Source: Phycisphaerales bacterium (GTDB taxonomy: Bacteria > Planctomycetota > Phycisphaerae > UBA1845 > Fen-1342). From it: DNA of 46,610 nucleotides. This document shows positions 11,953 through 41,810 of the stretch, piece after piece; within the stretch, counting starts at the first letter, position 1, and each line of letters begins with the position of its first letter. The stretch covers positions 1 to 46,610 of the forward strand of contig PMMM01000037.1 of assembly GCA_003162245.1 (NCBI GenBank), written 5' to 3'. Position numbers and translations under genes: made by a program. A model generated the notes under the pieces. It searched no databases. It saw only the letters and a program-made list of their open reading frames with translations, and was not told the origin of the DNA.

Positions 11953-11975
11953 CGCCCGTTTTAGGCGGGATTGCA

Positions 11976-12237: not shown

Positions 12238-12246
12238 GAGGGCTCC

Positions 12247-27450: not shown

Positions 27451-27497
27451 CCGCGCGCCCATTGATCGCGCCGATACCGCGCTGCCAGGAGCGGCTC

Positions 27498-27785
27498 ATG
27501 CGCAAAACGACCTGCCTCGCCGCGCTCATCTGCCTCAACCTGATTCTGCTGACGGCCCTCGTCTTCGCCGGCACGACGCCGCGCGTCGCGGCGGCCCAGT
27601 CCGGCGACGCCTCGGACAATTACCTGGTCGTCGCCGGCGAGATTCAGGAGCATTTCGACGCGCTCTACGTGCTCGACGTGCGCGAACGCATGTTGCACAC
27701 GTTCTACTTCCGTAAGGGTACGCGCGACTTGGACTACGGCGGTTACCGGCATCTTGAGCAGGATTTCCGGCACAACAAGGAGTAG
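27498..27785 (+). CDS. Small exported protein, related to the next gene
   Basis: The 95-aa protein has an N-terminal helix (LAALICLNLILLTALVFAG) and an outer part SDNYLVVAGEIQEHFDALYV then LDVRERMLHTFYFRKGTRDL. The pattern 'YL.V.......ALYVLD.R...L..F.F....R.L' recurs in the next gene as YKMLTQQ...ELLVVVDAAARKAVIYDF, so the two look paralogous. GGAG lies 6 nt before the ATG. The gap to the next gene is 5 nt. A beta-rich periplasmic domain is likely. Function unknown. Confidence 0.65.
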   Translation: MRKTTCLAALICLNLILLTALVFAGTTPRVAAAQSGDASDNYLVVAGEIQEHFDALYVLDVRERMLHTFYFRKGTRDLDYGGYRHLEQDFRHNKE

Positions 27786-27790
27786 CCGCC

Positions 27791-28204
27791 ATGACCCCGC
27801 CAACGCCTGCTCCGCTGGACCGTTCGGCGCCATCGCCCAGGCCGGGCAATGCCGGGCTGACCCCGCCAACGCCCGTGCCGCTGGACGGCAAGACCTTCGC
27901 CATCGGCGTGCTCGCGGTCACCGCGACCATCCTGTTCGTCGCGTTCATCCTGCTGGCCCAAACGCCCGCCCAGGCGATCGGCATGAACGACCACGCCGGC
28001 GACTACAAGATGCTGACGCAACAGGTCTCCAGCACGAAAGAGCTGCTGGTCGTGGTGGACGCGGCGGCCCGCAAGGCAGTGATCTACGATTTCGACCTGA
28101 TGAACAAAAAGCTCGACATCGCGTCCACCATCCCGCTCGACCAACTCCCGAAACCGAGCGCCCCCGAAGAGCGCACCGACCACCCGCGCCGCCGAACGCC
28201 GTAA
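27791..28204 (+). CDS. Small membrane protein with duplicated Pro-rich N-terminus
   Basis: The 137-aa protein starts with two copies of a TPPTPxPLD motif (MTPPTPAPLD and LTPPTPVPLD) coded by a near-perfect 29-bp direct repeat (27792 and 27858). A membrane helix (AIGVLAVTATILFVAFILL) and a short outer domain similar to the preceding gene follow. The Arg/Pro-rich C-terminus is polar. It is the last gene before the tandem hairpins and the Mu-like element. Function unknown. Confidence 0.65.
   Translation: MTPPTPAPLDRSAPSPRPGNAGLTPPTPVPLDGKTFAIGVLAVTATILFVAFILLAQTPAQAIGMNDHAGDYKMLTQQVSSTKELLVVVDAAARKAVIYDFDLMNKKLDIASTIPLDQLPKPSAPEERTDHPRRRTP
27792..27886 (+). repeat. 29-bp direct repeat in the 5' end of the gene at 27791
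   Basis: TGACCCCGCCAACGCC occurs at 27792-27807 and 27858-27873, each followed by a near-identical stretch ending CCGCTGGAC. About 26 of 29 positions match. The first copy spans the start codon. Confidence 0.7.
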
Positions 28205-28209
28205 GGGCG

Positions 28210-28253
28210 GTCCGGCCCGCCGGACGAGGGTGGCTTGGCCCGCCCGAGCGGGC
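28210..28253 (+). terminator. Tandem GC hairpins ending the small membrane-protein operon
   Basis: GTCCGG-CCCG-CCGGAC (28210-28225) and GCCCGC-CCGA-GCGGGC (28238-28253) are two perfect 6-bp stems with 4-nt loops starting 6 nt after the stop codon. No long T-tract follows. Confidence 0.5.
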
Positions 28254-28379
28254 TGTTCCGCACCAGTTGCAGGCGGGCATTGGTGAACGCAACAGAATAT
28301 ATATTATAGGACCTACGATGTGACGTCCTTATCCCGTGTTACGATCGCCGACAATCTCCCCGCTGTTCCGCTGTTCCGC
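28254..28379. repeat. Three copies of TGTTCCGC at the left flank of the Mu-like element
   Basis: TGTTCCGC occurs at 28254, 28364 and 28372. The 28254 and 28372 copies extend to a 13-nt match with one difference (TGTTCCGCACCAG and TGTTCCGCGCCAG). The stretch between is partly AT-rich (28291-28308). Confidence 0.6.
28280..28307 (+). promoter_or_regulatory. Possible rightward promoter just outside the element
   Basis: TTGGTG (28280-28285), a 16-nt spacer and TATTAT (28302-28307) in an AT-rich patch. It would fire into the left end of the element, antisense to its genes. The -35 is weak. Confidence 0.25.
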
Positions 28380-28393
28380 GCCAGAAAATGACG
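28372..28393 (+). repeat. Left terminal inverted repeat
   Basis: It reads TGTTCCGCGCCAGAAAATGA then CG. It pairs with the inverse of 41789-41810 at 17 of 22 positions. GAAAATGACGTTT (28384-28396) recurs inverted at 41690-41702. Confidence 0.65.
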
Positions 28394-28539
28394 TTTCGTG
28401 CGACAGCAGCGCGCACCCAAAAACCGCGTATATCGTCTCCGAAGCCCCCTTTTCGACGTTGTGAATTGGACCGGTTTACAGCTCTCGACCGCCGGTCAAA
28501 GGCCCTTTGAATGCGCTTCGGTCGGTACACCTCCGATGA
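28394..28539. other. Left-end subterminal region
   Basis: It contains a GTGCGACAGCAGCG motif (about 28399-28412) like the right-end sites, and the palindrome TCAAAGG-C-CCTTTGA (28496-28510), which may end transcription of the late genes. No gene is supported. Confidence 0.4.
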
Positions 28540-30096
28540 TCAGCTCGCAACCCCGCCCATCTCCGCCTCGATGCTCGGCACCATGCGTTTCAGGTCGCCG
28601 GGCACATGCAGGTGGTCCACGCTGATGTTCCAGTTGTGCGTCACGTTCGTCGCCGACCCGCCGCCCTCCTCGCCTTCGCCGCTCGCCGGCGTCGGCCGTT
28701 GCAACTCGATGCCCTCGATCGCCGCCGGCGGCGCTTGGCGCCCGTGCGGCGCCTGTGGGTGCTCGGGCACAACGTCTACGTTGGCCGGAAACTCTTCCAC
28801 CGGGTGCACGGTTATCTCGCCGCCCCGGGCCGCAGTGGAAATCATCCGCTGGGCGAGGTTCGCGAGCTGCTCGGGCGTACCCCGTCCGCCGAGCTTGTGC
28901 GACTTGGCCTTGCCGAATATATCGCCGACTCCCGGGAGGTCCTCATACGCGCTGACACCCCCCTGCGGAATCCGCCGCATCGGACCGCCCCCCTGCGCCG
29001 TTGCCGCGGTCCGGTACGCCCGGGCGATCGCCAGGGCCGCTTCCTGCTCTTCCTTCGTGAAGCCGCTTTCCTCCATGCCTGACTTCATCTGCCCCGCCGC
29101 AACGTCAAGCGGATCGACCACCAGCCCGGCGTCTGAGGGAGCGTGTGTCAGCGCGTAATCTCTCACCGATTTCCGGTAGCTCTGCCAGGCCCGGCGCGCT
29201 GCATCGGACTCCCCGGCCTTCAGGATGTCGGCGATCTGCCCCCCCGCCTTCCGCCGGTCCGTGAATTCCGGCGGCTTCATGCCCCGCGTGGTCAGCCCCG
29301 CGAAATAACGCTCACGGTCAAAGGCCACGCCCTCCGTTTTGGCGACCTGCTCCGCGACCGCGGCGTTCATGGCCAATTCCGCCGGGACTGCGATCTGCCC
29401 GCGCCCCGCTCCGGTCTGCATGGCTATCGAAGCCGATTGCGCCTGCGCCTCGCGGCCGTACAGCCCGAGTCCGGCGAGAGTTTTGGTCAACTCGTAGCGC
29501 TGTTCGAGGCCCTTCTCGCCTTCGCTGGTCATCGCGTCCTTGGCGCGTTTGACCGCCTGCGCCGCCCGATCCGCCGCTTCGGCCACGCTCTTGAATGCCG
29601 CGGCGACTCCGCCAACCACCGCGGCCCCGCCGGCCAGTGCGAGCAGCGTCGGCGTGAGGCTGCCGACGCCCAGCGCCAAGTGGGACAGCAGCCGGAAGGT
29701 TAGGCTGAGCTCCGGGTTGACGAGCATCAGCGCGTCCATCGCGAGCATCTGGCCATGCCGTGTGAGCTGCCCGGTTTCGGCTCCCAGCAGGCCGGCGGCC
29801 CGCGCCGCGTCGCCGTATACGACCGTCGCGAGCCGCTGGGCTTCCGCCTCCTGCGTCACTGCCTGCGCTGCCAACTGACTGGCACCGGCCACGTCGCCGC
29901 GGGCCTTGGCCAGCCGCTCCATGATTCGCAGGTCTTCGGCGTTGCGCTGCGCGGTCGAGAGGTCTTGCCGCACGGCCCCGGCCCCGGTCTGTACGCTCTT
30001 GAGCTGCTCCATCCGCGCGCGCACCCCGGCCAACTCGGCCTTGGCTTGGTCGCCGCCGACCACGCGCACCGGTATGTTCACGCCGTCCTGCGACAT
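28540..30096 (-). CDS. Tape-measure-like phage protein
   Basis: The 518-aa protein starts MSQDGVNIPVRVVGGDQAKA, has long helices (about 20-110), a hydrophobic stretch near 130-175 (LTPTLLALAGGAAVVGGVAA) and an Ala-rich coiled region, then a Pro-rich part and a C-terminal beta-like piece (NVTHNWNISVDHLHVPGDL). Helix plus hydrophobic core is how short tail tape-measure proteins look, but 518 aa is small and no other tail gene is present. It is the last gene of the late operon. GGAGG lies 8 nt before the ATG. Confidence 0.55.
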   Translation of the reverse strand: MSQDGVNIPVRVVGGDQAKAELAGVRARMEQLKSVQTGAGAVRQDLSTAQRNAEDLRIMERLAKARGDVAGASQLAAQAVTQEAEAQRLATVVYGDAARAAGLLGAETGQLTRHGQMLAMDALMLVNPELSLTFRLLSHLALGVGSLTPTLLALAGGAAVVGGVAAAFKSVAEAADRAAQAVKRAKDAMTSEGEKGLEQRYELTKTLAGLGLYGREAQAQSASIAMQTGAGRGQIAVPAELAMNAAVAEQVAKTEGVAFDRERYFAGLTTRGMKPPEFTDRRKAGGQIADILKAGESDAARRAWQSYRKSVRDYALTHAPSDAGLVVDPLDVAAGQMKSGMEESGFTKEEQEAALAIARAYRTAATAQGGGPMRRIPQGGVSAYEDLPGVGDIFGKAKSHKLGGRGTPEQLANLAQRMISTAARGGEITVHPVEEFPANVDVVPEHPQAPHGRQAPPAAIEGIELQRPTPASGEGEEGGGSATNVTHNWNISVDHLHVPGDLKRMVPSIEAEMGGVAS

Positions 30097-30132
30097 CGCT
30101 TACGCCTCCGCGCCTTCGCGCCGCCGCGGCTT

Positions 30133-30510
30133 CTATCCCGCCTGTCCGGTCGCCGTCCGCAAAATCTCGGCGAATTGTTCCACCGCGCGGACCATTGCCG
30201 CGTCCGGGTCTTCGGCGACATCGACCAGCGCGTAGTAGTCGTTACATGCAGACACGCTCACGCGCACGATGCACGGGCCGGCGGCCGTGTACTTGTCGGC
30301 GCCGTTCCGCAACCAGTAGTTGCCGCGCGCCTGCTCAATCCAATCCGCCGCGCTCGGCGTGAATGTCGTCTCGGCCGCGGGGGCGAGCGCGATTCCGACG
30401 GTGACGGCGCTGGCCGCGATCCCCGTCACCGCCGAGTCGTCGGCCGCTAGCAGCATCCGAACCGGCAGCCACTGACTGCTCCGCACTTTGCCCTGAAACA
30501 TGTTGCTCAT
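30133..30510 (-). CDS. Small virion-like beta-sandwich protein
   Basis: The 125-aa protein starts MSNMFQGKVRSSQWLPVRML. A repeated-strand segment (VTVGIALAPAAETTFTPSAA, then YWLRNGADKYTAAGPCIVRV) resembles the short beta-domain often seen in phage tail-fibre or virion proteins ('W.E.g.G.Y.L.l...dt..G...v.v'). A short C-terminal helix follows. GGAG lies 6 nt before the ATG. It lies 36 nt upstream of the tape-measure-like gene. The exact virion position is unknown. Confidence 0.5.
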   Translation of the reverse strand: MSNMFQGKVRSSQWLPVRMLLAADDSAVTGIAASAVTVGIALAPAAETTFTPSAADWIEQARGNYWLRNGADKYTAAGPCIVRVSVSACNDYYALVDVAEDPDAAMVRAVEQFAEILRTATGQAG

Positions 30511-30638
30511 AAGGCACTCCGTCTCTGCCGTCCCAACCGGCTTCGCTACGCTGGGCGGCTTGTCAGCCACCCTCGCCGCCTCCGCGGCCGGCGGTGCCGC
30601 GGACCACGTCGGCCCGCGGCACCGTCGCCCGTATTCCC

Positions 30639-31085
30639 TTACACCAGCACCGCGACCGGCGAGTTGACGACCGGCGTCGCGTGTTTCCGCAGCAGCGCGA
30701 TAACCACGCTGTCGCCGTTGCCCGAGCCGCCGTTGGCGAGCGTGGCGCGCATGTACCGCTTGCGCGCCGCCGCCCGTCCCGCCAGCCGGACATTGATGAG
30801 CGCGACGACGTTGTCAGCCACGTCGCCGCCCAACGCGGCCGTCTTCGCTTCGACGCCGGCGGCGTTTTCGACCAGGGCCGGATCGGCGCCGTTGGCGTCG
30901 TCGGACTCGTAAATCTTCACCTGGCTCGCGAGCACGGTGTTATCCACCGCCCCGAACGCCGCGACGAAGAGCACTTCATCCGCGCCCGCCGTGTCGATCC
31001 ACGCGGACCCGTTCGCGGTGCCCGCCGCGCGCTCGTTGGGCACGATGTGGTTCACCGCGTAGAGGATTTCGCTGAGAAATTGCAT
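30639..31085 (-). CDS. Phage structural protein next to the capsid gene
   Basis: The 148-aa protein starts MQFLSEILYAVNHIVPNERA and has alternating beta-type hydrophobic residues (DEVLFVAAFGAVDNTVLASQ, VKIYESDDANG, NVVALINVRL, RYMRATLANGG). Its place directly after the major capsid gene, its size and its beta-rich pattern fit a decoration or head-completion protein. No catalytic motif is seen. The 128-nt gap to the next gene holds no ORF with a ribosome site. Confidence 0.5.
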   Translation of the reverse strand: MQFLSEILYAVNHIVPNERAAGTANGSAWIDTAGADEVLFVAAFGAVDNTVLASQVKIYESDDANGADPALVENAAGVEAKTAALGGDVADNVVALINVRLAGRAAARKRYMRATLANGGSGNGDSVVIALLRKHATPVVNSPVAVLV

Positions 31086-31153
31086 GTTCTTACCTCACGT
31101 CTGTCGCGACGGAGGCCGGGGCTCCGCGGCCCCGGCCCGGTCGCGTGCCTTGC

Positions 31154-32332
31154 TTACGAGTGCGTCTTGAGCTGGACGTAGGCCGACTTGTCGCACTCCT
31201 GAATGTCCTGCAGCGCGTCGCCGGCGATCGCCTGGAGGCCCTCCGCGAACTTGTAGTCGTTGCTGACCCGAATCCGAATCCCCGGCGGTTGCAGCCGGAA
31301 CAGCCGCCAGCCGCGCTGCAGGGCGCCGAAGATCAGCATGGTCGTGTCCGCTTGCGTTTGGGCGCTCAATGTCGGCGCGACCTGCGTGATTTCGACGGGG
31401 TAGCCCATCAGCACGAACGGCGACGGCCGGTCTGCCGACAGGATGTCCGCGACCGGAGCGCCCGTCGTCAAGCGCTGCCCCAAGTAGCCCGCGAAGATGC
31501 TCAGGTGCATGTAGAACTTCGCGCCGGACACGTGGCCCCACTGCGGCAGCGCGCCGAGCGCCAAGGCCAGGTACGTGACGTGCTTGGCGATGACTTCCGC
31601 GAACGTGTCATCGCCGCTCTCCGCCGTCACCGTGAGCTGGCCGGTGCCGGATTGCTTGAAGGCGCCGGTCACGCGGGCGTGCGTCGCCGAGCCGTCGCCC
31701 ATGAAGCCGTAGAGGTCGCCCGCGTAGGCGAGCGCCAAGGCGATTTCCTGCGCGACGAAGTCACCCAGCGCCGCGGCGAGGGCCATGTCCAGCATCCACT
31801 GGTCCACGTAGGTCAGCGTCGCGTAGCGCGTCAGGTTGAACATAACGCGGCCCAGCGTCGGGCCGCTCTCGTCCGGCGCCTGCGCGATGTCCGGGTGGTA
31901 CACCGTCAAACCGCCCGTGCGTTTGACCATGCTACCGCTCTGCGACGTGACGGGCGTCGCCGGCACGTTGCGCTCGAAGGCGCCGTAGGTCTCCACGTTG
32001 CGGAGGATCTCATTGACGAGGATCTCCGGGACCGCGATGACCGCCCTGCAGAAGTCGGCCGCTTGCGCCATCTCGCGGAAAGGCCCCTTATAGGCCCCGC
32101 CGCGCTGGTAATACTCCGCCAGGGCGGTAAAACGCTCGCGGTACCTGGTCTCCGCGCTGGCGAAATCGTTCCTGAGCTTGGCGATGTCATCCGTCGCCGC
32201 GACCAGGTCCCGTTGCGTACCTTTCTTCAATTCGCTGAAGCTGCCCCCGAGCTTCTGGAGCAACGCCGCAACGTCGTCAAACCACTGCTGGGTCTGCTCC
32301 TGTTGCGGCGTTCTCGCTGCCGTTGCAGTCAT
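31154..32332 (-). CDS. Major capsid protein (HK97-fold type)
   Basis: The 392-aa protein has an N-terminal coiled-coil delta region (about 15-75; FDDVAALLQKLGGSFSELKK) as in HK97-type capsids, then the capsid core: ILVNEILRNVETYGAFERNV, TGGLTVYHPDIAQAPDESGP, DFVAQEIALALAYAGDLYGF and a P-domain end VLMGYPVEITQVAPTL. This is the shell-forming subunit. GAGGAG lies 6 nt before ATG 32332; a longer frame to 32392 lacks a ribosome site. It follows the protease gene and one small gene, the usual maturation order. Confidence 0.85.
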   Translation of the reverse strand: MTATAARTPQQEQTQQWFDDVAALLQKLGGSFSELKKGTQRDLVAATDDIAKLRNDFASAETRYRERFTALAEYYQRGGAYKGPFREMAQAADFCRAVIAVPEILVNEILRNVETYGAFERNVPATPVTSQSGSMVKRTGGLTVYHPDIAQAPDESGPTLGRVMFNLTRYATLTYVDQWMLDMALAAALGDFVAQEIALALAYAGDLYGFMGDGSATHARVTGAFKQSGTGQLTVTAESGDDTFAEVIAKHVTYLALALGALPQWGHVSGAKFYMHLSIFAGYLGQRLTTGAPVADILSADRPSPFVLMGYPVEITQVAPTLSAQTQADTTMLIFGALQRGWRLFRLQPPGIRIRVSNDYKFAEGLQAIAGDALQDIQECDKSAYVQLKTHS

Positions 32333-32545
32333 CCGTGACTCCTCTTGCCGCGTCGCCCGGTTCCGTCCGAGTGCGGCGCTTGTCGCCGGCACTCAGGCCC
32401 GAAGCGGGCCTCTCCGCGGCAGTTTCGATTGCCTGTCGAACATCGTTCTAAACACCTTTGCGGACCGGTCGGCTCCGCGCCCGCCCGGCGCTTTCCGGCG
32501 ACGGGGTCCGCACCGTCGCCAGCCGCCAGGGCGGCGTCCGCAGCC

Positions 32546-32923
32546 TCAGTCTTCCCGGCGGCGCCGCTTGCGCCCGCCACGGCAGCCGCGCCGGCGCTGC
32601 TGCGGTGTTCCCTCCGCGGCGTCAATGCCGCGTACCGCGCCACTGGCGGCGGGTTCGGGTTCCCGCGCTGCGTCGTCGCAGGCTTCGCACTCCGCGCTGT
32701 CTTCGGCCTCCGCCGTGCGGCGCTCCAGTTCGCGGAATTCCAACTCGGCGAGCTGCTCGTCCGCCGGCAGCGCCGCGAACTCGGCCTCGGCGCGGAACGG
32801 CTCCGGGTTCGCGATCATCGCGGCCAGCGTGTGGACGGCCGAGCGCTCGAGCTGCTCCAGACCGTCCGCCAACCGCGCTTTCAGGCGCGCGCCGAACGTC
32901 GCTGCCAGTGCCGAGTTGGTCAT
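32546..32923 (-). CDS. Small charged phage protein between protease and capsid
   Basis: The 125-aa protein starts MTNSALAATFGARLKARLAD. It is mostly helical and acidic (FAALPADEQLAELEFREL, TAEAEDSAECEACDD) and ends in a basic tail (RRRGCRGGRKRRRRED). ATG overlaps the protease TGA by 4 nt. Position between protease and capsid suggests a scaffold-like or accessory head protein, by inference only. A gap of 213 nt to the capsid start holds no further gene. Confidence 0.5.
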   Translation of the reverse strand: MTNSALAATFGARLKARLADGLEQLERSAVHTLAAMIANPEPFRAEAEFAALPADEQLAELEFRELERRTAEAEDSAECEACDDAAREPEPAASGAVRGIDAAEGTPQQRRRGCRGGRKRRRRED

Positions 32924-33951
32924 CCGGGCCTCCGCGCGATGCGCTGCAGCAGCCCGTCCACTTCGTCGCCCAAGCCCGTGGCAACCGGGCTCGGCGGCGC
33001 TTTTGTCGCCCCCGCGGGCGTCCCAAAATCGGCCTTGAACGCCGCGGGCAAGTCCATGTGCTGTGCCTCCGCGGCGTCGATGATTTCTTCGTCCTGTTCG
33101 ATCGCGGCCAGGGCCGCGTCCCGAAACCGTTCCACCCACGCATCGAATTGCGTATCCAGCGCCGCCGTCAGGACCGCGGCGTCCGCACTTCCACCCGCTG
33201 CGGTCAGCCGCCCCACTTGTTCGCGCAGGCTCGCGACTTCCTGCCGGAGTTGCTGAATCGTGTCGCCGGCGGGCGCCCTGGCCGCGACGTGCCGGACCGT
33301 TTCGGCCAGGATCGCGGCGGCCACGGATGTGGCCGGCAGCGTTTCGCTCGCAATGGCGTCCCGGTCCCAAGCCGCCACCGCGCGGCCAGGAGCGGAAATC
33401 CCGTCAATCAGCCCGGCCGCCAGCGCTTCGGATGCGGAGAACCAGGTTTCCTCGCGCACCCAGCTTTCGACCAGGCTGCGCGGGCGCCCGGTCCGCGCCA
33501 CGTACATCCGCACGATCGTGTCGGTCAAGACATCGAGCGTTTGGGCTTCCTCCCGCATCTTGGCCGCGTTGCCCGAGACCGTGTTCCAGACCGCGTGCAC
33601 CATCACCATCGCATTCGGCGCGGCCGTGACGTGGTCGCCGCCCATTGCCACGATCGTCGCGGCGCTGGCACACAGCCCATCAATCTGGACTTCCTTGCGC
33701 GCCGGGTGCCTGCGCATCGCGTTGAAGATCGCCAGGCCGCCGAAGAGCGACCCGCCGCGGGAGTTGATGTACATGCGAATCGTGTTCCCCTGGAACGCTT
33801 GCAGGTCGGCGACGACGCGCGCCGAATCGACGACGCCGTCGTTCCCCATGTCGATGGTGCCGTAGATCAGGAGCGCAAGCTCGGTCGGCCCCGCGTTCTC
33901 TACGCGGTAGCCGCGATACGCCGTTTCTCCGCCGGTTGCTGTCTCTCTCAC
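32920..33951 (-). CDS. ClpP-like prohead maturation protease
   Basis: The 343-aa protein has a ClpP/S49-type fold: YINSRGGSLFGGLAIFNAMR near 61-80, the Ser96 nucleophile in DGLCASAATIVAMGG and His119 in MVMVHAVW. The C-terminal third is a helical scaffold-like extension (QLRQEVASLREQVGRLTAAG). Phage proteases of this type cleave scaffold and capsid during head maturation. GTG 33951 has AGGAG 8 nt upstream. It opens the late block, after a strong hairpin. Confidence 0.88.
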   Translation of the reverse strand: MRETATGGETAYRGYRVENAGPTELALLIYGTIDMGNDGVVDSARVVADLQAFQGNTIRMYINSRGGSLFGGLAIFNAMRRHPARKEVQIDGLCASAATIVAMGGDHVTAAPNAMVMVHAVWNTVSGNAAKMREEAQTLDVLTDTIVRMYVARTGRPRSLVESWVREETWFSASEALAAGLIDGISAPGRAVAAWDRDAIASETLPATSVAAAILAETVRHVAARAPAGDTIQQLRQEVASLREQVGRLTAAGGSADAAVLTAALDTQFDAWVERFRDAALAAIEQDEEIIDAAEAQHMDLPAAFKADFGTPAGATKAPPSPVATGLGDEVDGLLQRIARRPG

Positions 33952-33979
33952 GTCTCACTCTCCTGTCCGATCCGCGCCC

Positions 33980-34013
33980 GGCGCCCGGGGCGGGATGGCG
34001 ATCCCCGGGCGCC
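33980..34013. repeat. Perfect 11-bp hairpin between early and late genes
   Basis: GGCGCCCGGGG (33980-33990) and CCCCGGGCGCC (34003-34013) with a 12-nt loop, in the 74-nt gap between genes at 34026 and 33951. It could be a terminator, antiterminator site or processing signal. No T-tract. Confidence 0.6.
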
Positions 34014-34025
34014 GCGCGGCCCACG

Positions 34026-34385
34026 TCACACTGCCTTACGCTTTGCGGGTCGGCGCGATCGCACCGCGGCCGTTCGCGCCTCTTGTCTCTCGACCATGGC
34101 GCGCGTCTTCGGCAAGAGCAGCGCCTTGACACGGTCGCTGGACTTCCCGTGCTCCCTTTCCACGGCCTGCTCCCCGGTGGCCCCGTCCGACCCCGCCTGC
34201 TTGTGTTCCACCGCGTCGGCATAGCTCCGCACGTACATCGCGGCGATCTCGCGAAGCGTCTGCTTCAGACTTTCAAGGTCTCGGTCGCAAATCAGGATCG
34301 GCAAGACCATTTCAGACTCGCCGTCGGGCCACTGAAGGATGACCGTAACGGACTGCATCGGTCCGTACAGGAAGTCTTCCATCAT
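34026..34385 (-). CDS. Unknown phage protein (119 aa)
   Basis: It starts MMEDFLYGPMQSVTVILQWP and has a small alpha/beta N-terminal half (SEMVLPILICDRDLESLKQT) and a basic helical tail (VKALLLPKTRAMVERQEART). GGAGGA lies 7 nt before the ATG, overlapping the end of the upstream gene, so the two are coupled. No family recognised. Its place before the head genes would suit a small regulator or packaging accessory. Confidence 0.5.
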   Translation of the reverse strand: MMEDFLYGPMQSVTVILQWPDGESEMVLPILICDRDLESLKQTLREIAAMYVRSYADAVEHKQAGSDGATGEQAVEREHGKSSDRVKALLLPKTRAMVERQEARTAAVRSRRPAKRKAV

Positions 34386-34386
34386 T

Positions 34387-34641
34387 TCAGGCTCCTCCGC
34401 CAGGGCGCCGCGTCGGTTCCACGGGAACCGCCTGCAACTCCCGGGCCAGGGCCGCTACGAACGCGACTGGTGCAACGGCCAATATGCTCACTACCAAGCC
34501 GAGTGCTGAGTACCGCCGCGCGTCGTCGCTCGGCGTCGCGAGGTCGATCCCGCACTCCGCTATGGACTGATGCGCCCCGGACACGAGCCGAAGCAACCGC
34601 TTGGCAGGTGCCGTGCCGCTCCTATTTTTCGCCTTCAACAC
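34387..34641 (-). CDS. Small single-pass membrane protein (possible holin)
   Basis: The 84-aa frame starts VLKAKNRSGTAPAKRLLRLV with a ribosome site AGGAGG 6 nt before GTG. One strong hydrophobic segment (ALGLVVSILAVAPVAFVAAL) follows, then a short Pro-rich tail. Size and topology would suit a phage holin, but one helix is not diagnostic and no endolysin is nearby. It is coupled to the next gene at 34385. Confidence 0.5.
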   Translation of the reverse strand: MLKAKNRSGTAPAKRLLRLVSGAHQSIAECGIDLATPSDDARRYSALGLVVSILAVAPVAFVAALARELQAVPVEPTRRPGGGA

Positions 34642-34874
34642 GTCGTGCCTCCTATCTCTCAGGTAGTCACGCCGTCCCTGGCGTTTGCTCCGCGTTGGCG
34701 TCCGTGCCGCACGCACGATTCGCTGTCCTTTCGCCGCTTCGGGCTCACCGCCCGCGCGGCGCCGTTCGCCAGCGTCCCGGGCTTGCCACGCGAAACGCCG
34801 CGCGTCTCGCGTGGCCGCGAGTTGATGAACGCTCCCGGCCTGACTGTGAACTTCAACTCGCGCCCGGAACACGT
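34642..34874. other. Gap with a 9-bp hairpin and no confident gene
   Basis: GCCACGCGA (34785-34793) and TCGCGTGGC (34807-34815) form a perfect stem with a 13-nt loop, between the HTH gene and the membrane-protein gene. A TTG-started, Arg-rich minus-strand frame (34659-34856) crosses it but has no ribosome site and is not accepted. Confidence 0.45.
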
Positions 34875-35357
34875 TCAAGCTCCCATGCGCTTTCGAGTAA
34901 ACGGCCCATGATCGCGCACGAGCCGCGGGAATTCGCCGCACGACGCGGGGTCCGACACTTTGCGCCGGCCGCGACCGTCCGCGAGCAGCCCCGCCGCGCC
35001 TCCGTCCGTGTACCGCTTCAACCAGCCCCACAGAGTCCGCTTGCAGACGCGCACCGGATTCAGCCGCCGCAAGCTGCAATACCGCCGGAGTGTCGCGCGC
35101 TTCGGCGCCCGCCGGCGCAGTTCGCGCCGCTGATAGGACGGGCAGGTCCCGGCGAGTTCGGCGAGCAGCTGCTGCCGCCGACTCTCTATGCCGGCCCGCC
35201 ACAGCAGAAACCGCCGTACCGTCAGCACACGCCGCACGCCCGCCGCCCGCTTCCCGGGCGTCAGCGCCGCCAACTCCCGGCGCAGCGCGGGCACAGACAG
35301 GTCGGACCACCGCGGCGCCGTGTTTCGAGCGGTCAGTTTGCGACGACAGCGCGTCAA
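34875..35357 (-). CDS. Helix-turn-helix protein resembling a Mu-type transposase DNA-binding domain
   Basis: The 160-aa basic protein has a first half of helices (LSVPALRRELAALTPGKRAA, RQQLLAELAGTCPSYQRREL) and then an HTH-like block KRTLWGWLKRYTDGGAAGLL then ADGRGRRKVSD. That block closely resembles the winged-helix part of MuA/IS481-type transposases ('TLYRWL+RY..gG..gL..r.rg'). It stands alone without a catalytic domain. TTG 35357 overlaps the MuB-like stop (TTGA), a coupled start. It could bind element ends or compete with the transposase. Confidence 0.55.
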   Translation of the reverse strand: MTRCRRKLTARNTAPRWSDLSVPALRRELAALTPGKRAAGVRRVLTVRRFLLWRAGIESRRQQLLAELAGTCPSYQRRELRRRAPKRATLRRYCSLRRLNPVRVCKRTLWGWLKRYTDGGAAGLLADGRGRRKVSDPASCGEFPRLVRDHGPFTRKRMGA

Positions 35358-36448
35358 CCGGCCCCCCCCTTCCCGCCCATGCGCAGCGCCGTTTCCACGT
35401 CCTGCCCCCGGATCGTGTCGCCGCCGCCCTGGCCGCGGCCCGCCAGCACCGCGGCGATCTTGGCGGCATTGACCGCCCGTCGCAGGTGACTCGGGTCGAA
35501 GTTCGCCACGTCCAGCAGCTTCGCGCATGCGTCCGCGTCCAACTCGCCGGCGACGTGCCGGGCGACGATCGCCCGCAGTGTCGCGGCGTCCAGCCACGGC
35601 CGGGGCTGGCCACCTATCCCGCCCCGGAGCAACTCGGCGTCCAGGTCACACCGCAGCGCGATCCGGGCCACGAGCGGACCGCAGAGCGGATCGGACCGGA
35701 CGTCGACCGCGCGCTGCAGGGCCGTCGTGCCGATCAGCAGCAGCCCCACGTCGGCCCCGTCGAAAACGGCCCGGGCCGCCTCCAGGGCCGACGCACTGAG
35801 AAGCTGGGCTTCGTCGATAACGAGCAGACCGTTTGATTGCCGCGCCGCTTGAATCCCGGCCTTCACCGTCGCGCAGACCGCCCCGCCCGCGCCGCCGCCG
35901 GCGGCCAGTCCGATTGCGTGCAATAGACCGCGCGCCCCGCGGCTGTCGGGGTCGGACCGGACCGCGACCACGCTCCCGGGCAGCTCCGCCTGGATTGCCG
36001 CGAGCGCGTGCGACTTGCCGAGCCCGGGCGCCCCCACCGTCAGCCCGATTGTGTGTGTTGCCCGGACCATGCGGGCCACGCCGGCCACGAGCCGTGTAAC
36101 CGAGGTCGGCACGTACCGGCCGCGCCGTAGCTCGCGGGCGTGCGCGTCGGCTCGGCACCAGGCTTCGGCATCGCGCAGCAGCGTATGCCGTGGCCCGTCC
36201 GGGATCGTCGCGGGGCTTTCGAGCAGCGTTTGAATGACGCTCGGCCGCACGTCGAGGGCTTTCGCCAGCGCCGCCGCCGCCACGCCCCACTGCTCGCAGT
36301 GCCCGCGGATAAAGCCCACCGCCGCGCCCGCGTCGGCCAGCGGCTCGCCGGCCGGCACCAGGCGTACCGCTTCGCGCGTGCGCCGGGTCTCTTGCAACCC
36401 GTCAAAGGTCGATACGAAATCGCTCGGCAGACTCGTCAGAGCAGCCAT
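35354..36448 (-). CDS. MuB-like AAA+ ATPase (target selection/transposase activator)
   Basis: The 364-aa protein has an N-terminal helical HTH-like region (WGVAAAALAKALDVRPSVIQ), then an AAA+ core with Walker A VGAPGLGKSHALA near 170, Walker B GLLVIDEAQLLSA near 243, and sensor-like LLLIGTTALQ. In Mu this ATPase coats target DNA and delivers it to MuA. The start is unsettled: ATG 36448 fits the family, but the frame is open to ATG 36646, which overlaps the transposase stop and would add a signal-peptide-like 66-residue leader (LLLAAVLCVAVAAGRIPAQ). Confidence 0.8.
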   Translation of the reverse strand: MAALTSLPSDFVSTFDGLQETRRTREAVRLVPAGEPLADAGAAVGFIRGHCEQWGVAAAALAKALDVRPSVIQTLLESPATIPDGPRHTLLRDAEAWCRADAHARELRRGRYVPTSVTRLVAGVARMVRATHTIGLTVGAPGLGKSHALAAIQAELPGSVVAVRSDPDSRGARGLLHAIGLAAGGGAGGAVCATVKAGIQAARQSNGLLVIDEAQLLSASALEAARAVFDGADVGLLLIGTTALQRAVDVRSDPLCGPLVARIALRCDLDAELLRGGIGGQPRPWLDAATLRAIVARHVAGELDADACAKLLDVANFDPSHLRRAVNAAKIAAVLAGRGQGGGDTIRGQDVETALRMGGKGGAG

Positions 36449-36635
36449 AGGCGCAGGCCCCCAGCCCTCAGACCGGCGGCTTGCCGCCGGTGCATGGGGC
36501 CGGTTGGGTGCGGACGCGCCCTCCATAACCACGTCCGCACGCCCGCTGAAGGCCCGCGCTTCCTGCGCAGGAATCCGCCCGGCCGCGACCGCTACGCACA
36601 GCACCGCGGCGAGCAACAATCGACGTGTAATCGAC

Positions 36636-38135
36636 TCACGCAACATCGGCCCCCCCTTCCGGCGGTTCCGGTTGGTCGTCTTCGTCGTCGTAGGCGTCAC
36701 ACAGACCCGCGAAGGCACTCGGGTCCGGTTCGTCGTCTTCGTCCAGCGCGGACGCGGGGCCGTCGCCGCAGAATTCCATCAGCGCGTCGCCGACGCTCTT
36801 TTCTTCGGCGAACCGCGCGAAGCTTGGACCGTCGCCGCAGAGTTCCATCAAGGCGGTCCCGGCGTCTACCGGGTCTTCAGGAACGCGGTTGCGCTCCGCC
36901 CAGCGCTCCCCCACGGTCTGCCCGCCTTGCCGTTCGCGCTCGATACCATCTTCGGCCAACCCCTTGGCGGACAGACGCGCGAAGCCGCTGCGTGCACGCC
37001 CTGCGTTGGCACCGCTTGCATCTTCGGCACTTCCGGCGTCTGCGAATCTGGCGTAGGAAACACCGCGCCCGCCGGTGCGCTGCACCGACGCCATCGACCG
37101 CGCCACGTCCGACGCTCCCGGTAAGAGCTGGACGCCGCGCGCCTCCGTCTGCCCCTCCGCCCCCGCCGCTTTGCGCCGGACGGATTGCTGCTCGGCGTAC
37201 CGCCGCTCGGCGGCGATTTGCTGCGCGATGCTGGCCACGGGCGTCAGCCGATCGTCCCACGTCGTCGCGGCCGACTTGGCGAGTTTGCGGGCCGCCGCTT
37301 TCCGTCGGGCACCCTCGCGGATGTCGTCGTGCGACACGCCGTACAAGCGCGTGTTGCGGGCTTCACAGATCAGGCGCCCGTCCACATCCTGCACGAAGAC
37401 GCGGCTCGCGTCGGTCGGGTCCACCCGGATATCGACTTCCTGCCCTTGCAACTGCCACAGTTCCAGGTTGCTTTGGCCGTAGGTCACACCCCGGAATCGC
37501 ACGCCGTTGCGCGAGACTGTGACGCGCTCCGTCCGCATCAATAGCAGGTCCAGGATTTCCGGCGGCGCCGTCCGCCGCGCGATCGCGTTATCTGTGAAGG
37601 CTTCGGCCGGCGTGCGGCCGTTCATGCCCGCCCCGCTGTGCGTCGTGTTGTGGTACAATTCGGCCCACGCCGCGAAGAGGTCGCGGACTTCCTCCAGACC
37701 CGGCGTGCGGATCGTCCCTTCCCGCAGCCGCTTGTTAAGCTCTTCCGGCCGCGATTGCGGGTCTTTGCCGCAGTACGTCTCGAAGCGCTTGCTGAAGCCG
37801 TCGCAGACCGTGCCGAAAAATCGCTCGACTGGCTTGCCTTGTGGGTGGTACGCCTGCGACCAGTGCACCGTGATTCCCAGCCGGTGCATGATCCCGTTGA
37901 CGCGCTCTTCGTCCACCCGGGCCTTGCCGCCCGTGACCCCCTTCGCGCGGTAGTCTTTGCCGTTATCGACGATGATTTCTTCGGGCGCGCCGTGTGCGAC
38001 GACGGCGTGGCGGAAGGCCGCCAGCAGCGTGTCACTGTTCGGGCTCAGGCTGATCCACCAGCCCACCAGCCGCCGCGACGACATATCCATCCACGCCGTC
38101 AGCCACGGCCGCACGAGCTTCCCTTCGTGCGTCAC
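36636..38135 (-). CDS. MuA-like transposase, C-terminal part after an in-frame UGA
   Basis: This 499-aa frame is in the same register as 38166-39110, with only a UGA between. It holds the DDE core (LTAWMDMSSRRLVGWW; second Asp in IIVDNGKDYRAKG; Glu in GKPVERFFGTVCDGF), a beta-barrel (RVFVQDVDGRLICEARNTR) and a long acidic, repetitive C-terminus (ALMELCGDGPSFARFAEEKS and ALMEFCGDGPASA). The first possible start, GTG 38135, lies after the first catalytic Asp (codon 38159-38157), so a product begun here would be inactive. Without the stop the full protein would be 824 residues. Confidence 0.8.
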   Translation of the reverse strand: MTHEGKLVRPWLTAWMDMSSRRLVGWWISLSPNSDTLLAAFRHAVVAHGAPEEIIVDNGKDYRAKGVTGGKARVDEERVNGIMHRLGITVHWSQAYHPQGKPVERFFGTVCDGFSKRFETYCGKDPQSRPEELNKRLREGTIRTPGLEEVRDLFAAWAELYHNTTHSGAGMNGRTPAEAFTDNAIARRTAPPEILDLLLMRTERVTVSRNGVRFRGVTYGQSNLELWQLQGQEVDIRVDPTDASRVFVQDVDGRLICEARNTRLYGVSHDDIREGARRKAAARKLAKSAATTWDDRLTPVASIAQQIAAERRYAEQQSVRRKAAGAEGQTEARGVQLLPGASDVARSMASVQRTGGRGVSYARFADAGSAEDASGANAGRARSGFARLSAKGLAEDGIERERQGGQTVGERWAERNRVPEDPVDAGTALMELCGDGPSFARFAEEKSVGDALMEFCGDGPASALDEDDEPDPSAFAGLCDAYDDEDDQPEPPEGGADVA

Positions 38136-38165
38136 CCAGAAATCGAATTGATGATGGTCGCCGAC

Positions 38166-38168
38166 TCA
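38166..38168 (-). other. In-frame UGA codon splitting the transposase
   Basis: TGA in the context TGC-TGA-GTC lies three codons before the first DDE Asp. All other frames of the element and the host use TGA as a stop, so reassignment is unlikely. It is either a nonsense mutation or a readthrough site. Confidence 0.75.
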
Positions 38169-39110
38169 GCATTGATTCGGGCGGTACTGCGCCGCCGCGT
38201 CGCGTTCGATGTACGGGGCGTGCCGCGCGGCCCACTTCCGCGGCCCGAGCCGGTGATAGTCCAGAATGCTCGGCGGGAAGTTGGCCTTCGCCCAGCGCTG
38301 CACGCTCCGCAGCGCCGGCAGCGTCCAGCCGTGTTGGTCGGCGAGCGCGACCGCCGACCGATAGATCGTCGCCACGCGCAGTTGCGTGCCCGTGAGTTGC
38401 ACTCGGAAAAACGCCTGCGCGTCCGGGCTGAAGCTCGTTTCGGCGCCGTCATCGTCGCCGCGCGGGCGCCCGCGCGCGTCCGGGTCGATGCCCGCTTTGA
38501 TCTTGCCCAGCGCCTCGCGGACGGAACGCGCCGATCCGGCCAGGCTGTGCGCCTTGGCCCACTCGGCGTTGGCGGCACAGAAAAGCCGATCGGCTTCGCG
38601 CCGGCCCTCGCGTGTGGTCCGCAGCCCAGCGCACTTGGCGTTGTGCTCGTCCAGCCGCTTGCCCAGCTCCAGGCGGTCTAGGAAGCGCTGCCTCTTGCGC
38701 TCCGGCCAGTGCGCGTATTGAAAACCGAGCGTGCTCGGGACCGCGACGCCGAAGACTTCGCGCGGCAGCTCCCCCGTGGCCGTCGCCAGGAACTCCCCCA
38801 CCGTGACAGATTCGCTCGGCAAACCGATCGGCAGCACCGCCGCTCGCGCGACGTACAACCGGCCGCCGGTCTTCGTCACCAGCCCCGCGGTCCGCGGATC
38901 GCCCGCCAGGTCTTCGACCCATCGGCGTAGAGCCCGCCCCCCCGCTTCGGCTGTGCGGCCTTGCAGCGGGTTGTATTTCTCCAACTCCGCCAGCGCCACG
39001 GCGTCGCCCACCGGCTCGACTACCAGCGCCCGATGCGTTACGCCGGTCGGCATGGGGCTTGCGCCCGCTTCGGTGTCCAGTCTGAGCCGCAACTCCGCTT
39101 CCACGTTCAC
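38166..39110 (-). CDS. MuA-like transposase, N-terminal part ending at an in-frame UGA
   Basis: The 314-aa part starts VNVEAELRLRLDTEAGASPM at GTG 39110, 9 nt after the previous stop. It has the DNA-binding and linker domains of Mu-type transposases, ending WTLPALRSVQRWAKANFP, then HAPYIERDAAAQYRPNQC-stop. After UGA the same frame continues VGDHHQFDFWV. Family members commonly have Trp right before 'VGDHHQFDF', so UGA likely replaces a UGG Trp codon. This half alone has no catalytic residues. It could still bind the ends and act as a brake. Confidence 0.78.
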   Translation of the reverse strand: MNVEAELRLRLDTEAGASPMPTGVTHRALVVEPVGDAVALAELEKYNPLQGRTAEAGGRALRRWVEDLAGDPRTAGLVTKTGGRLYVARAAVLPIGLPSESVTVGEFLATATGELPREVFGVAVPSTLGFQYAHWPERKRQRFLDRLELGKRLDEHNAKCAGLRTTREGRREADRLFCAANAEWAKAHSLAGSARSVREALGKIKAGIDPDARGRPRGDDDGAETSFSPDAQAFFRVQLTGTQLRVATIYRSAVALADQHGWTLPALRSVQRWAKANFPPSILDYHRLGPRKWAARHAPYIERDAAAQYRPNQC

Positions 39111-39118
39111 ACCCGCTG

Positions 39119-39544
39119 CTAGCGCGCCAGCCCCAGCGCCTTGAGGGAGTCGCGCGCCTGCCTGAGATACTCGGGCACCGCCTCGGGGTTGTGTGCCTTG
39201 AGCAGAGCAACCGCCGCGGATTTCCCGAGAATGAAGGCGCCGACGGCGCCGAAGAGCAGGTCGGAATGATCTTGTCCGGGGGCCGCCAGGGTTTGCATGA
39301 CCGCTCGGCCGAACCCCGCGAGGTTCGCATTCAGTGCGGTCGCGATGGCCGCGTACCCGTCGTCGGGAAACTCCGCGCCCTCCGCGCGCATGACATCGTC
39401 TGCGCGCGCCCACGCGGCCACGCCGTCCCAGTCCAACATCACCCTCGCCAGCCGGTAGGCTGCCGCCCACATAGCCCGTCGCCCCGGAGCGTCCAGGGCT
39501 TGGCCGACCTCCGCAATCGCGTCAATCAGTGCGCCAAGGTTCAC
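39119..39544 (-). CDS. Unknown early protein of the element (141 aa)
   Basis: It starts VNLGALIDAIAEVGQALDAP at a GTG overlapping the previous stop by 4 nt (GTGA). It is almost fully helical (RAMWAAAYRLARVMLDWDGV, YAAIATALNANLAGFGRAVM, VPEYLRQARDSLKALGLA), with no known motif. Its stop is 8 nt before the transposase start. Position between the Ner-like gene and the transposase suggests a control or accessory role, but nothing in the sequence shows one. Confidence 0.55.
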   Translation of the reverse strand: MNLGALIDAIAEVGQALDAPGRRAMWAAAYRLARVMLDWDGVAAWARADDVMRAEGAEFPDDGYAAIATALNANLAGFGRAVMQTLAAPGQDHSDLLFGAVGAFILGKSAAVALLKAHNPEAVPEYLRQARDSLKALGLAR

Positions 39545-40029
39545 GTCGGCCCCCCTACCGCCGCGGTCTGCGCTGCCTCTGCTCCGACCTGTTTTCCCCG
39601 AAGGTCCCGCAGATGCCGCCGGGCCGCCAACCGCGTCGCTGCCAGGAGCATGGCCCCCAGCGTGAGCAGTTGGCCCGCGTTCTGCATCCTGGGAATGCTC
39701 CCGCCCACCAGCTCGGAGACGTTCGCGGCCCCGGCCCGCAACCGTTTCGCGACGCGCTCCAGCGCCTCCAGGCCGGACGCGACCGATTCGCGCTCGTCCC
39801 AGCGGCCCACGCCGGCGAACGCCGACTCGAAATCCGCATCGGGCACCGTGCCGTGCGTCAGCAGCCCGCGCACCAGTACGTACACCGACCTGACGCACGC
39901 TTGCGCCCCCGCACCGGTCTCGATGACCGTTTCGAGGTAAGACGCGGCCTCCCCCACGCCCCACCCCGGCTCCGTGCGGTCGAAAAGACCGCGCAGCCCG
40001 TCCGCTTCAGGCACTGTTGTCGTTTCCAT
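39541..40029 (-). CDS. Unknown early protein of the element (162 aa)
   Basis: It starts METTTVPEADGLRGLFDRTE, with helical regions (VASGLEALERVAKRLRAGAA) and a hydrophobic segment (AGQLLTLGAMLLAATRLAAR) followed by a basic stretch (RRHLRDLRGK), so peripheral membrane contact is possible. It overlaps the Ner-like gene by 23 nt and the next gene by 4 nt, so the early genes form one tightly packed operon. GGAG lies about 10 nt before the ATG. No family recognised. Confidence 0.55.
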   Translation of the reverse strand: METTTVPEADGLRGLFDRTEPGWGVGEAASYLETVIETGAGAQACVRSVYVLVRGLLTHGTVPDADFESAFAGVGRWDERESVASGLEALERVAKRLRAGAANVSELVGGSIPRMQNAGQLLTLGAMLLAATRLAARRHLRDLRGKQVGAEAAQTAAVGGPT

Positions 40030-40300
40030 CGCGCAAAATCTCCGTCACGAGTTGCCCGCATGAGCCCGCCGCCGCGGTCGATCCGCGGCACTTGTCCACT
40101 AGCAGCGTTCGCACGGACACGTGCAGCGCCGCCGCGATGCGTTTCGCCGTCTTCCCAGAGACGGGCCGCCCCCGAAGCGCCGCCCAGAGCGTCTTCCGAT
40201 TCACCCGGGCCTTGCCAGCCAACCCCGAGCGCGTCAATAATGCGGCGCGACAGGCGGACTCGATCGCCGCTCGGTCGAGTGTAACGGTGTCGGCTCGCAT
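40007..40300 (-). CDS. Ner/Cro-like small HTH regulator
   Basis: The 97-aa protein starts MRADTVTLDRAAIESACRAA and has a clear HTH of the XRE type: LLTRSGLAGKARVNRKTLWA then GRPVSGKTAKRIAAALHVSV. As first gene of the leftward operon facing the repressor it fits Ner in Mu or Cro in lambda, shutting down early transcription. Start choice: the predicted transcript begins at about 40301, so ATG 40300 would be leaderless; ATG 40312 adds four residues but overlaps the -10. No ribosome site is present at either. Confidence 0.7.
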   Translation of the reverse strand: MRADTVTLDRAAIESACRAALLTRSGLAGKARVNRKTLWAALRGRPVSGKTAKRIAAALHVSVRTLLVDKCRGSTAAAGSCGQLVTEILRDGNDNSA

Positions 40301-40307
40301 GTTGGTA

Positions 40308-40336
40308 CACATAAACCACACAATGGTTACTGTCAA
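40308..40336 (-). promoter_or_regulatory. Early leftward promoter of the element
   Basis: On the minus strand TTGACA (40336-40331, 6 of 6), a 17-nt spacer, and TATGTG (40313-40308). Predicted start about 40301-40302. It should drive the Ner-like gene and the transposition operon. Confidence 0.65.
40314..40328. promoter_or_regulatory. Operator-like dyad inside the early promoter
   Basis: AACCA-CACAA-TGGTT, a perfect 5-bp dyad filling the spacer between -10 and -35. A repressor bound there would block polymerase. It lies 33 nt before the repressor ATG. Confidence 0.5.
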
Positions 40337-40360
40337 GCAACGCACGCCAGGAAACTCGCA

Positions 40361-41440
40361 ATGACCCGCGCCCGGAGCGGCCAGCTAGGCGCGTTCCTGC
40401 GCCAACTTCGCGTCGAACATGGACTTACGCTGCGGGCCGTCGCGGACGCATCGCGCAGAATTCCGCGCGAGCAAGGCGCACCGATCTCCCATCCCTACCT
40501 GTCGATACTTGAATCCGGGCGCCCCGTCGATGTGTCGATCGGCAAGCTGCTCAGCCTTGCCGCGGTCTATCAAGTGTCGGTCCGGGAGTTGGTGCTCCGC
40601 ACCCCCGAACCGCTTCACGCGAAACTCCGCGACGACCTCCACGCTTGGTACGCTGACCGAGACGTGATCCTCGATCCGCCACGGGCTCCCCCGTCTGCGC
40701 TTGAGCCCGCCCGCGAGCGCGTCACCTGTGCCCTCGAATCGCGCGCCCGCAGCGTGCGTCTCCCGCTCGGTGAGGAACGCAGTTGGCGCAAGCTCATTCC
40801 GCTCTTGATGCTCAGATCGGCGATGCCCGTTTTGCTGGAGGAATTCGGCGCGCGCCTGCCGCAGAGACTGGGTCCGGTCGCAGTTCGCAGGATAACCGCC
40901 GCGGTTCGCTCTGAGCCCGACGCCGACAGACTTTGGACGGGCCTCATCATTCCGGCCCTCGACCAAGCCCTCTTCCGGCGTGACGATATCCCCGCGCTCC
41001 TAGTCGCTGCAATCGACTGGTGGAGTCTCGATTGCACCGACGCCACGGCGACGTGTCACTTCGCGGCGCCGGACCACGATGCGCGATTCGGATACGAGCG
41101 CGCACCGTTGGGCCTGGCGATGAACCTGCGCAGCTTGCAAGCCGCTCACGTTCTCCGCGCTGCTCTGCCGCGCCTGTTCGCGCGCTGTGCGCCGCCCCCC
41201 GGCTTGGACACCGTCTTCGCTCCTTACCTCGCGGGTCTCTTCGTGAAACGACCCCCGAACCAAACGCCCCCGGGCTCAGTCAACGTCATCCCCTTCATCG
41301 TCGGACTGGCGCGCGACCTCGCGGAGGAATCCTCGGCGCTCGCCGCGGCCGGCGCCGCCGAGAAACCGGCCGTCCGCGCCGGCGTCGTGGCCATTCTCAA
41401 GCAGTCCGGAATCCTCACGGCCCCTTCGCACGTCCGATAA
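40361..41440 (+). CDS. XRE-family repressor of the element
   Basis: The 359-aa protein has an N-terminal HTH of the XRE type (FLRQLRVEHGLTLRAVADAS, HPYLSILESGRPVDVSIGKL, LSLAAVYQVSVRELV, to about residue 85). A long C-terminal region is Leu/Arg/Ala-rich and of unknown fold. It is divergent from the early operon across a 60-nt control region, as in temperate phages. AGGA lies 9 nt before the ATG. No Ser-Lys LexA-type self-cleavage pair is evident. It is the only rightward gene of the element. Confidence 0.75.
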   Translation: MTRARSGQLGAFLRQLRVEHGLTLRAVADASRRIPREQGAPISHPYLSILESGRPVDVSIGKLLSLAAVYQVSVRELVLRTPEPLHAKLRDDLHAWYADRDVILDPPRAPPSALEPARERVTCALESRARSVRLPLGEERSWRKLIPLLMLRSAMPVLLEEFGARLPQRLGPVAVRRITAAVRSEPDADRLWTGLIIPALDQALFRRDDIPALLVAAIDWWSLDCTDATATCHFAAPDHDARFGYERAPLGLAMNLRSLQAAHVLRAALPRLFARCAPPPGLDTVFAPYLAGLFVKRPPNQTPPGSVNVIPFIVGLARDLAEESSALAAAGAAEKPAVRAGVVAILKQSGILTAPSHVR

Positions 41441-41457
41441 TGTGCAACGCCGAATTA

Positions 41458-41473
41458 CGGACGTATACGTCCG
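41458..41473. repeat. 16-bp perfect palindrome after the repressor gene
   Basis: CGGACGTATACGTCCG, 18 nt after the repressor stop. It may be an operator or a terminator stem. No T-tract. Confidence 0.6.
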
Positions 41474-41537
41474 CCATTCAGCTAAATCGGACATAAAGAT
41501 CCTGTCCGCGTGCGCGCACGTTTTGTCCGCGTGTCCG

Positions 41538-41557
41538 CACGCTGTTTTTTGTCGCAA
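41538..41557 (+). repeat. Right-end site A
   Basis: CACGCTGTTTTTTGTCGCAA matches site B (41650-41669) at 19 of 20 positions. Confidence 0.65.
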
Positions 41558-41649
41558 ACCGCTCCCGACGCCGCGTCGAATCGCCGTAAATCACGCGTCG
41601 AACGGCGCTTGAAGCGCGCGCGTCCAACCACCGCCCGGCGGACACCCGA

Positions 41650-41669
41650 CACGCTGTTTTATGTCGCAA
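41650..41669 (+). repeat. Right-end site B
   Basis: CACGCTGTTTTATGTCGCAA, in the same orientation as site A and 112 nt away. A weaker third copy overlaps the right terminus (about 41787-41805). Confidence 0.65.
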
Positions 41670-41689
41670 TTCGAGCCGTGCGCGCGCCC

Positions 41690-41702
41690 AAACGTCATTT
41701 TC
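41690..41702 (-). repeat. Inverted copy of the left-end 13-mer
   Basis: AAACGTCATTTTC is the exact inverse of 28384-28396 (GAAAATGACGTTT), 13.3 kb away. Confidence 0.6.
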
Positions 41703-41788
41703 GCTCACATTTGCGCGCCCCCCTCCGCGGCCTGCAACCCCCGCCCGACGCGCGACTTGCGCCGCTCCACGCCGCTCTGACTTCCGCG

Positions 41789-41810
41789 CATCTTTTTCTG
41801 TCGCTCAACA
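41789..41810 (-). repeat. Right terminal inverted repeat
   Basis: Read inward from 41810 it is TGTTGAGCGACAGAAAAAGA then TG. It matches the left end at 17 of 22 positions. Confidence 0.65.

Follow-up and report, generated by a model that had tools for sequence, protein, structure and literature searches.

A Mu-like element with its own capsid and no detected packaging genes in a Phycisphaerae genome: a candidate transposable satellite

Introduction

What kind of element transposes like phage Mu, encodes its own capsid and shows no genes for filling it? The question is raised by a 46,610-nucleotide stretch of DNA from a Phycisphaerales bacterium (the window; contig PMMM01000037.1, here C204), which belongs to a 4.76-Mb genome with its nearest relatives in the Phycisphaerae (Planctomycetota). 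A first reading of the letters, made without database searches (the sequence-only reading), had described a capsid-bearing, Mu-like element without packaging or tail genes. It proposed a transposing satellite that builds its own shells and borrows packaging and tails, with a prophage carrying clean deletions as the alternative. Here, we compare the element with related genomes, viral contigs and known satellites.

Results

Limits and ends of the element

The sister species G118 is ~90% identical to the window up to position 28332 and again from 41811. Between these matching flanks, G118 lacks the window element and carries an unrelated 4.4-kb methyltransferase/restriction-like island. Together with the inverted ends of the element, the flanks confirmed almost to the base the limits first read from the letters, 28372 and 41810. 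The early end lies near 41810, and the late genes are on the minus strand. The element and its ends comprise the following features.

28372..41810, minus strand: whole Mu-like element, 13,439 bp (sister-genome flanks and inverted TGTT...AACA ends)
28372..28388, plus strand: terminal inverted repeat of the late end, TGTTCCGCGCCAGAAAA (end comparison, motif scan)
41794..41810, minus strand: terminal inverted repeat of the early end, TGTTGAGCGACAGAAAA, read as the reverse complement from 41810 (end comparison, motif scan)
41538..41669, minus strand: two more copies of the end motif, at 41538-41557 and 41650-41669 (20-bp direct repeat; motif scan)

The two terminal repeats, TGTTCCGCGCCAGAAAA and TGTTGAGCGACAGAAAA, are identical at 14 of 17 positions, a score reached by 1% of random 60 × 60-bp pairs; TG-anchored pairs at ≥13/17 arise by chance in 0.4%. 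A second copy of TGTTCCGC lies at 28364, beside the late-end repeat. At the early end, the motif GCGACA-nAAA occurs three times on the same strand (41554, 41666 and 41803), with five hits in the whole window, and the copies at 41538-41557 and 41650-41669 are possible transposase binding sites. The element meets the criterion of TG...CA ends with multiple transposase-type end repeats. No 5-bp target-site duplication was found at the window element, the flanks of which may have been altered since insertion.

A different Mu-like element lies directly downstream of the same host gene (27214-28332 in the window) in genome G233 (L086/L130, G233:C71, 12642-15556). It has the same orientation, a MuB 57% identical to that of the window, a similar GCGGAACA-type end and a tape measure; a capsid was undetectable in it. 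The site following this host gene, which holds insertions in the window, G233 and G118, may be a variable hotspot or a preferred target.

Early region and interrupted transposase

The early region encodes functions for control and transposition.

40361..41440, plus strand: XRE-type repressor, 359 aa, divergent (HTH_31 2e-10; 42% identity to the G233 element's repressor across 98 aa)
40007..40312, minus strand: Ner-like small HTH protein (weak HTH matches; 41% to the G233 counterpart)
39541..40029, minus strand: early orphan, 162 aa (no family matched)
39119..39544, minus strand: early orphan, 141 aa (no family matched)
36636..39110, minus strand: MuA transposase (DDE_2, Mu-transpos_C), interrupted by an in-frame TGA at 38166-38168
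35354..36448, minus strand: MuB-like AAA ATPase, 364 aa (AAA_22 5e-14; 57% to the G233 MuB)
34875..35357, minus strand: homeodomain-like HTH protein downstream of MuB (weak HTH matches)

All genes after the repressor are co-directional on the minus strand and tightly packed, and all but MuA are open. The combination of a MuA-family DDE transposase and a MuB ATPase meets the criterion for a Mu-like element, though MuA carries the in-frame TGA. This stop takes the position of a tryptophan conserved in relatives (YRPNQ[C/N]W-VGD): the alignment reads YRPNQNWVGDHHQFDF in G112, YRANQCWVGDF in G317 and YRPNQC*VGDHHQFDF in the window. Because it immediately precedes the first acidic residue conserved in the catalytic domain, neither fragment is expected to be active. 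We infer from the sequence alone that the window copy is probably immobile unless transposase is supplied in trans. An intact MuA homologue, implied by the sequence-only reading, is thus corrected, and mobility of this copy is unsupported. Read-through of the TGA or a consensus error remains conceivable.

Virion-type genes of the late region

The late region holds a capsid cassette interspersed with small orphans.

34026..34385, minus strand: orphan, 119 aa (no family matched)
32920..33951, minus strand: ClpP-type prohead protease with a long C-terminal extension, 343 aa (CLP_protease 7e-29; phrog_94 1e-53)
32546..32923, minus strand: orphan, 125 aa, between protease and capsid (sub-threshold TetR_C_44 only)
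31154..32332, minus strand: HK97-fold major capsid protein, 392 aa (Pfam Phage_capsid 1e-17; TIGR01554 3e-24; ~40% to the G112 capsid)
30639..31085, minus strand: p148, beta-rich virion-type protein (phrog_5707 3e-6; alignment)
30133..30510, minus strand: orphan p125, 125 aa (no family matched; low-confidence model)
28540..30096, minus strand: tape-measure-like protein, 518 aa (homology to the G112 and G077 tape measures; common N- and C-terminal motifs)

The homologues of the 518-aa protein in G112 and G077 occupy the canonical tape-measure position, and a sister protein matches PF10145 and phrog_1272. p148 is conserved beside the capsid in phages and satellites; its profile found no PDB relative. 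The AlphaFold models of p148 and of the 125-aa p125b had pLDDT values of 54 and 44, too low for fold matches to be trusted.

No terminase or portal was detected

All six-frame ORFs of ≥60 aa in the window element were searched at full sensitivity with HMMs of terminase, siphophage portal and Mu portal, and nothing scored below E = 1. This all-frame search, a check proposed with the sequence-only reading, speaks against a divergent terminase or portal inside the element. A capsid-bearing, Mu-like element without packaging genes was therefore correctly recognised. The unassigned coding-strand products measure 101-162 aa, besides the 359-aa repressor, so that none is large enough for a terminase or portal. 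Small connector or tube proteins may nevertheless hide among the 119-162-aa orphans, which qualifies the claim that tail genes are absent. By the criterion of terminase, portal and tail genes, the element fails as a complete Mu-like phage.

A resident helper was also rejected: neither Terminase_6N nor a Phycisphaerae TerL profile found a large terminase in the window genome, so that a helper can only be of external origin.

Complete phages of the same stock

Terminase and portal are both present in complete phages of this stock, found in G112, G148, G035 and G362. The one in G112, a genome of the same family, is a full Mu-like phage: besides terminase and portal it has protease, connectors, tape measure and a homologue of p148. 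Its early and late genes are divergent. A terminase of the same-stock type is co-resident in G222, G362 and G317, and not in the window genome.

Terminase-less relatives with MuA and MuB

The search of related genomes suggested at the outset found terminase-less relatives in several gene orders. Six further Phycisphaerae elements with MuA and MuB (G317, L211, L229A, L229B, L232 from G028, and G186, also L233) carry protease and capsid without terminase or portal, and full-sensitivity searches found neither gene in 12 relatives. G317, from the same order and another family, holds a Mu-like element of ~14 kb that encodes an S78 protease along with capsid and tape measure; p148 was undetected, and its exact ends and duplication were unresolved on search. 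L211, an IMG/VR contig, reads protease-capsid-MuA-MuB with a truncated tape measure upstream. On L229/L258 (IMGVR_UViG_3300036761_001443), two complete protease-capsid-MuA-MuB elements lie in tandem; L229A has p148 and lacks a tape measure, and the second has a tape measure and lacks p148. The G028 element reads MuA-MuB-S78-capsid before its contig stops just past the capsid. The G186 contig, 9,184 bp long with a TGTA start and a TACA end, resembles a whole element: it contains repressor, MuA, MuB, a 100-aa protein, S78, capsid, p148 and tape measure, and no other sizeable gene. The cassette is not invariant: L229A has no tape measure, L211 only a truncated one, and in G317 p148 went undetected.

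The productive queries of viral contigs were MuA and the L211 capsid. Scans of these contigs with the window capsid, the window tape measure, a capsid alignment and the G317 capsid returned no matches or only distant phages.

Several features of these loci are recorded for their own sake. In G317 (L072), a 373-aa protein between Ner and MuA (12142-13263) has a weak sigma-factor-like match and a C-terminal repressor-type HTH; a 47-bp tandem repeat marks one element end (2155-2290), and a 43-bp sequence inside the tandem-repeat end recurs just outside the other end (16231-16273). In L211, MuB is followed by several paralogous ORFs arranged in tandem, each of ~140-200 aa (9087-12521). L079 (G269:C90), from the family of the window genome, is a partial Mu-like element with MuA, MuB and tape measure, cut by the contig end; unusually, its Mu-type portal (PF06074) is placed downstream of the tape measure.

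The recurrence of protease, capsid and p148 without portal or packaging genes is also compatible with a self-contained shell: a protein compartment, tailless or free of DNA, that would serve the host or the element in a way unconnected with any helper phage. We consider this very unlikely, as a tape measure is hard to explain if there is no tail, and no cargo gene is common to all elements.

Islands without MuA

Six genomes carry islands of ~7-8.6 kb with the same capsid cassette and no catalytic MuA. They contain repressor, S78, capsid and tape measure; most also have p148, as well as Ner-like and MuA-N-terminal-like HTH proteins, and a Gam-like protein and a small membrane-type protein are often present. 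Two of them, L245 and L240, are bounded by TG...CA ends and by perfect 5-bp duplications (ATATT in L245 and ACTAT in L240), and show repeated TGGC-containing sites. Judged by sequence only, the MuA-less islands probably represent non-autonomous Mu-type elements. End repeats common to the full phage and the MuA-less island of G222 were not found in the available part of the sequence.

The persistence of MuA-less islands in several genera could also be explained by assembly interference, in which capsid, protease and tape measure would act as dominant-negative decoys that poison siphophage assembly and protect the host, the island spreading by transposition alone. In favour of this, the retained proteins are shape-determining assembly components, and inhibition of tail assembly is a known satellite and prophage defence (PMC11364771). 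However, poisoning needs neither a prohead protease nor a maturation-competent capsid, the Mu-like repressor/Ner control points to an inducible life cycle, and the window element has no defence-family matches. This explanation therefore appears unlikely.

Capsid phylogeny and selection

In the capsid tree, 13 terminase-less capsids form one clade (support 100/99). The window capsid is sister to that of G112 (100/100), and the G317 capsid falls elsewhere. An AU test rejected forcing all 15 capsids (the 13, the window and G317) into a single clade (p-AU 7e-87), which means that the terminase-less architecture arose more than once and that one terminase-less capsid lineage is old. The differing gene orders and the AU test likewise reject a single ancestral deletion for the whole class. 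One candidate member, G183/L244, was discarded: in the tree its capsid groups with that of a phage, and the contig begins within the capsid gene.

Between the autonomous L229A and the island L246 of another genome, dN/dS was 0.08 for the capsid, 0.12 for p148 and 0.23 for the protease. These values were measured on relatives only, the window copy having no close relative for comparison.

The main rival is a decayed prophage, in which deletions removed the packaging and tail genes of a G112-type Mu-like siphophage whose remains are now degrading. The MuA nonsense codon, the lack of a target duplication at the window copy, the grouping of its capsid with that of a complete phage and the absence of the element from G118 all speak for it. 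Against it, the remaining genes are all open and tightly packed, and the architecture recurs with differing gene orders, its own capsid clade and a dN/dS of 0.08. Moreover, the early and late genes of G112 are divergent, whereas all genes of the window element after the repressor are co-directional, so no simple deletion interconverts the two. Decay is thus unlikely. The recurrence, the clade and the dN/dS of the relatives show that the class is maintained by purifying selection and is not a one-off remnant; simple decay is rejected for the class as a whole. The same evidence argues against the prophage with clean deletions that had been the original alternative.

Discussion

We favour, by a modest margin (probability ~0.55), the reading that the class consists of Mu-like transposable satellites, which provide their own shell, protease and often a tape measure and take portal, terminase and tail from a helper. 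Its gene content, Mu-type ends in relatives, lack of terminase and portal, recurrence, separate capsid clade and purifying selection on the capsid are shown; helper dependence, chimeric particles and size redirection are inferred. The satellite originally proposed is in this sense supported for the class, with supply by a helper remaining an inference.

According to this satellite model, the element would lodge by MuA/MuB transposition under repressor control and replicate likewise. On de-repression, it would make an HK97 shell, prohead protease, p148 and tape-measure protein, and a co-infecting siphophage would provide the portal, both terminase subunits (large and small), connectors, tail tube and baseplate; a Mu-like phage of the same stock, such as that of G112, is a candidate. 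Having its own capsid and tape measure could give the element control over head size, tail length or the specificity of entry, with generic machinery coming from the helper. Several points weigh against the satellite reading: no particle, induction or transduction data stand behind helper use, and no pac or cos site common with a helper has been demonstrated. The lack of a resident large terminase in the window genome, the interrupted MuA and missing target duplication of the window copy, and the variable cassette of the relatives count against it as well.

A bolder version, which we hold to be somewhat less likely than not, sees two tiers of planctomycete Mu-type satellites: autonomous 8-14-kb MuA/MuB elements, and 7-8.6-kb islands that would ride MuA in trans. 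In both tiers, capsid, protease and often a tape measure would go into helper particles, and packaging would be borrowed.

The window element resembles Mu and Mu-like phages in its repressor/Ner control, MuA (DDE_2, Mu-transpos_C), MuB and TG...CA ends with repeated sites, and in the 5-bp duplications of its relatives. It differs in its size (13.4 kb versus ~37 kb), in its HK97/siphophage-type capsid and in having no detected terminase, portal, gpF, sheath, baseplate, fibres or lysis genes. Among satellites, the closest precedents for the proposed mode, by analogy, are SaPIbov5 and the cfPICIs. cfPICIs make their own complete heads and borrow tails (PMC10690885). Like them, the window element is small, lacks most tail genes and meets the criterion of an own capsid and head-maturation protease. 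However, cfPICIs encode portal, connectors, both terminases and HNH (PMC10690885), and the window element, without portal or terminases, fails their definition; it also differs in its tape measure and Mu-type mobility. SaPIbov5-type SaPIs share a satellite homologue of the helper coat protein, which in SaPIbov5 co-assembles with helper coat in mixed small capsids (PMC10945586). In the window element, by contrast, the capsid comes together with a protease, p148 and a tape measure, and no helper has been identified. Mu-type transposition is not known from SaPIs. The Streptomyces satellites Mulch and Flayer also encode capsids, but they encode terminases, portal and scaffold as well (PMC10690885) and parasitise virulent phages. 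No description of Mu-type or tape-measure-bearing satellites was found in the open-access PMC literature searched.

The capsid-bearing satellites known so far either combine head genes with packaging genes or alter the shape of their helpers' capsids. If our reading is true, the virion would here be split the other way: the shell, in many cases together with the tail ruler, would belong to the parasite, and portal and packaging motor to the helper, while Mu-type transposition would take the place of site-specific integration. This raises the question of how a shell of the HK97 type could take up a portal and a terminase that are not its own. It would also add a satellite family to the Planctomycetota, a phylum for which we found none described in the open-access PMC literature.
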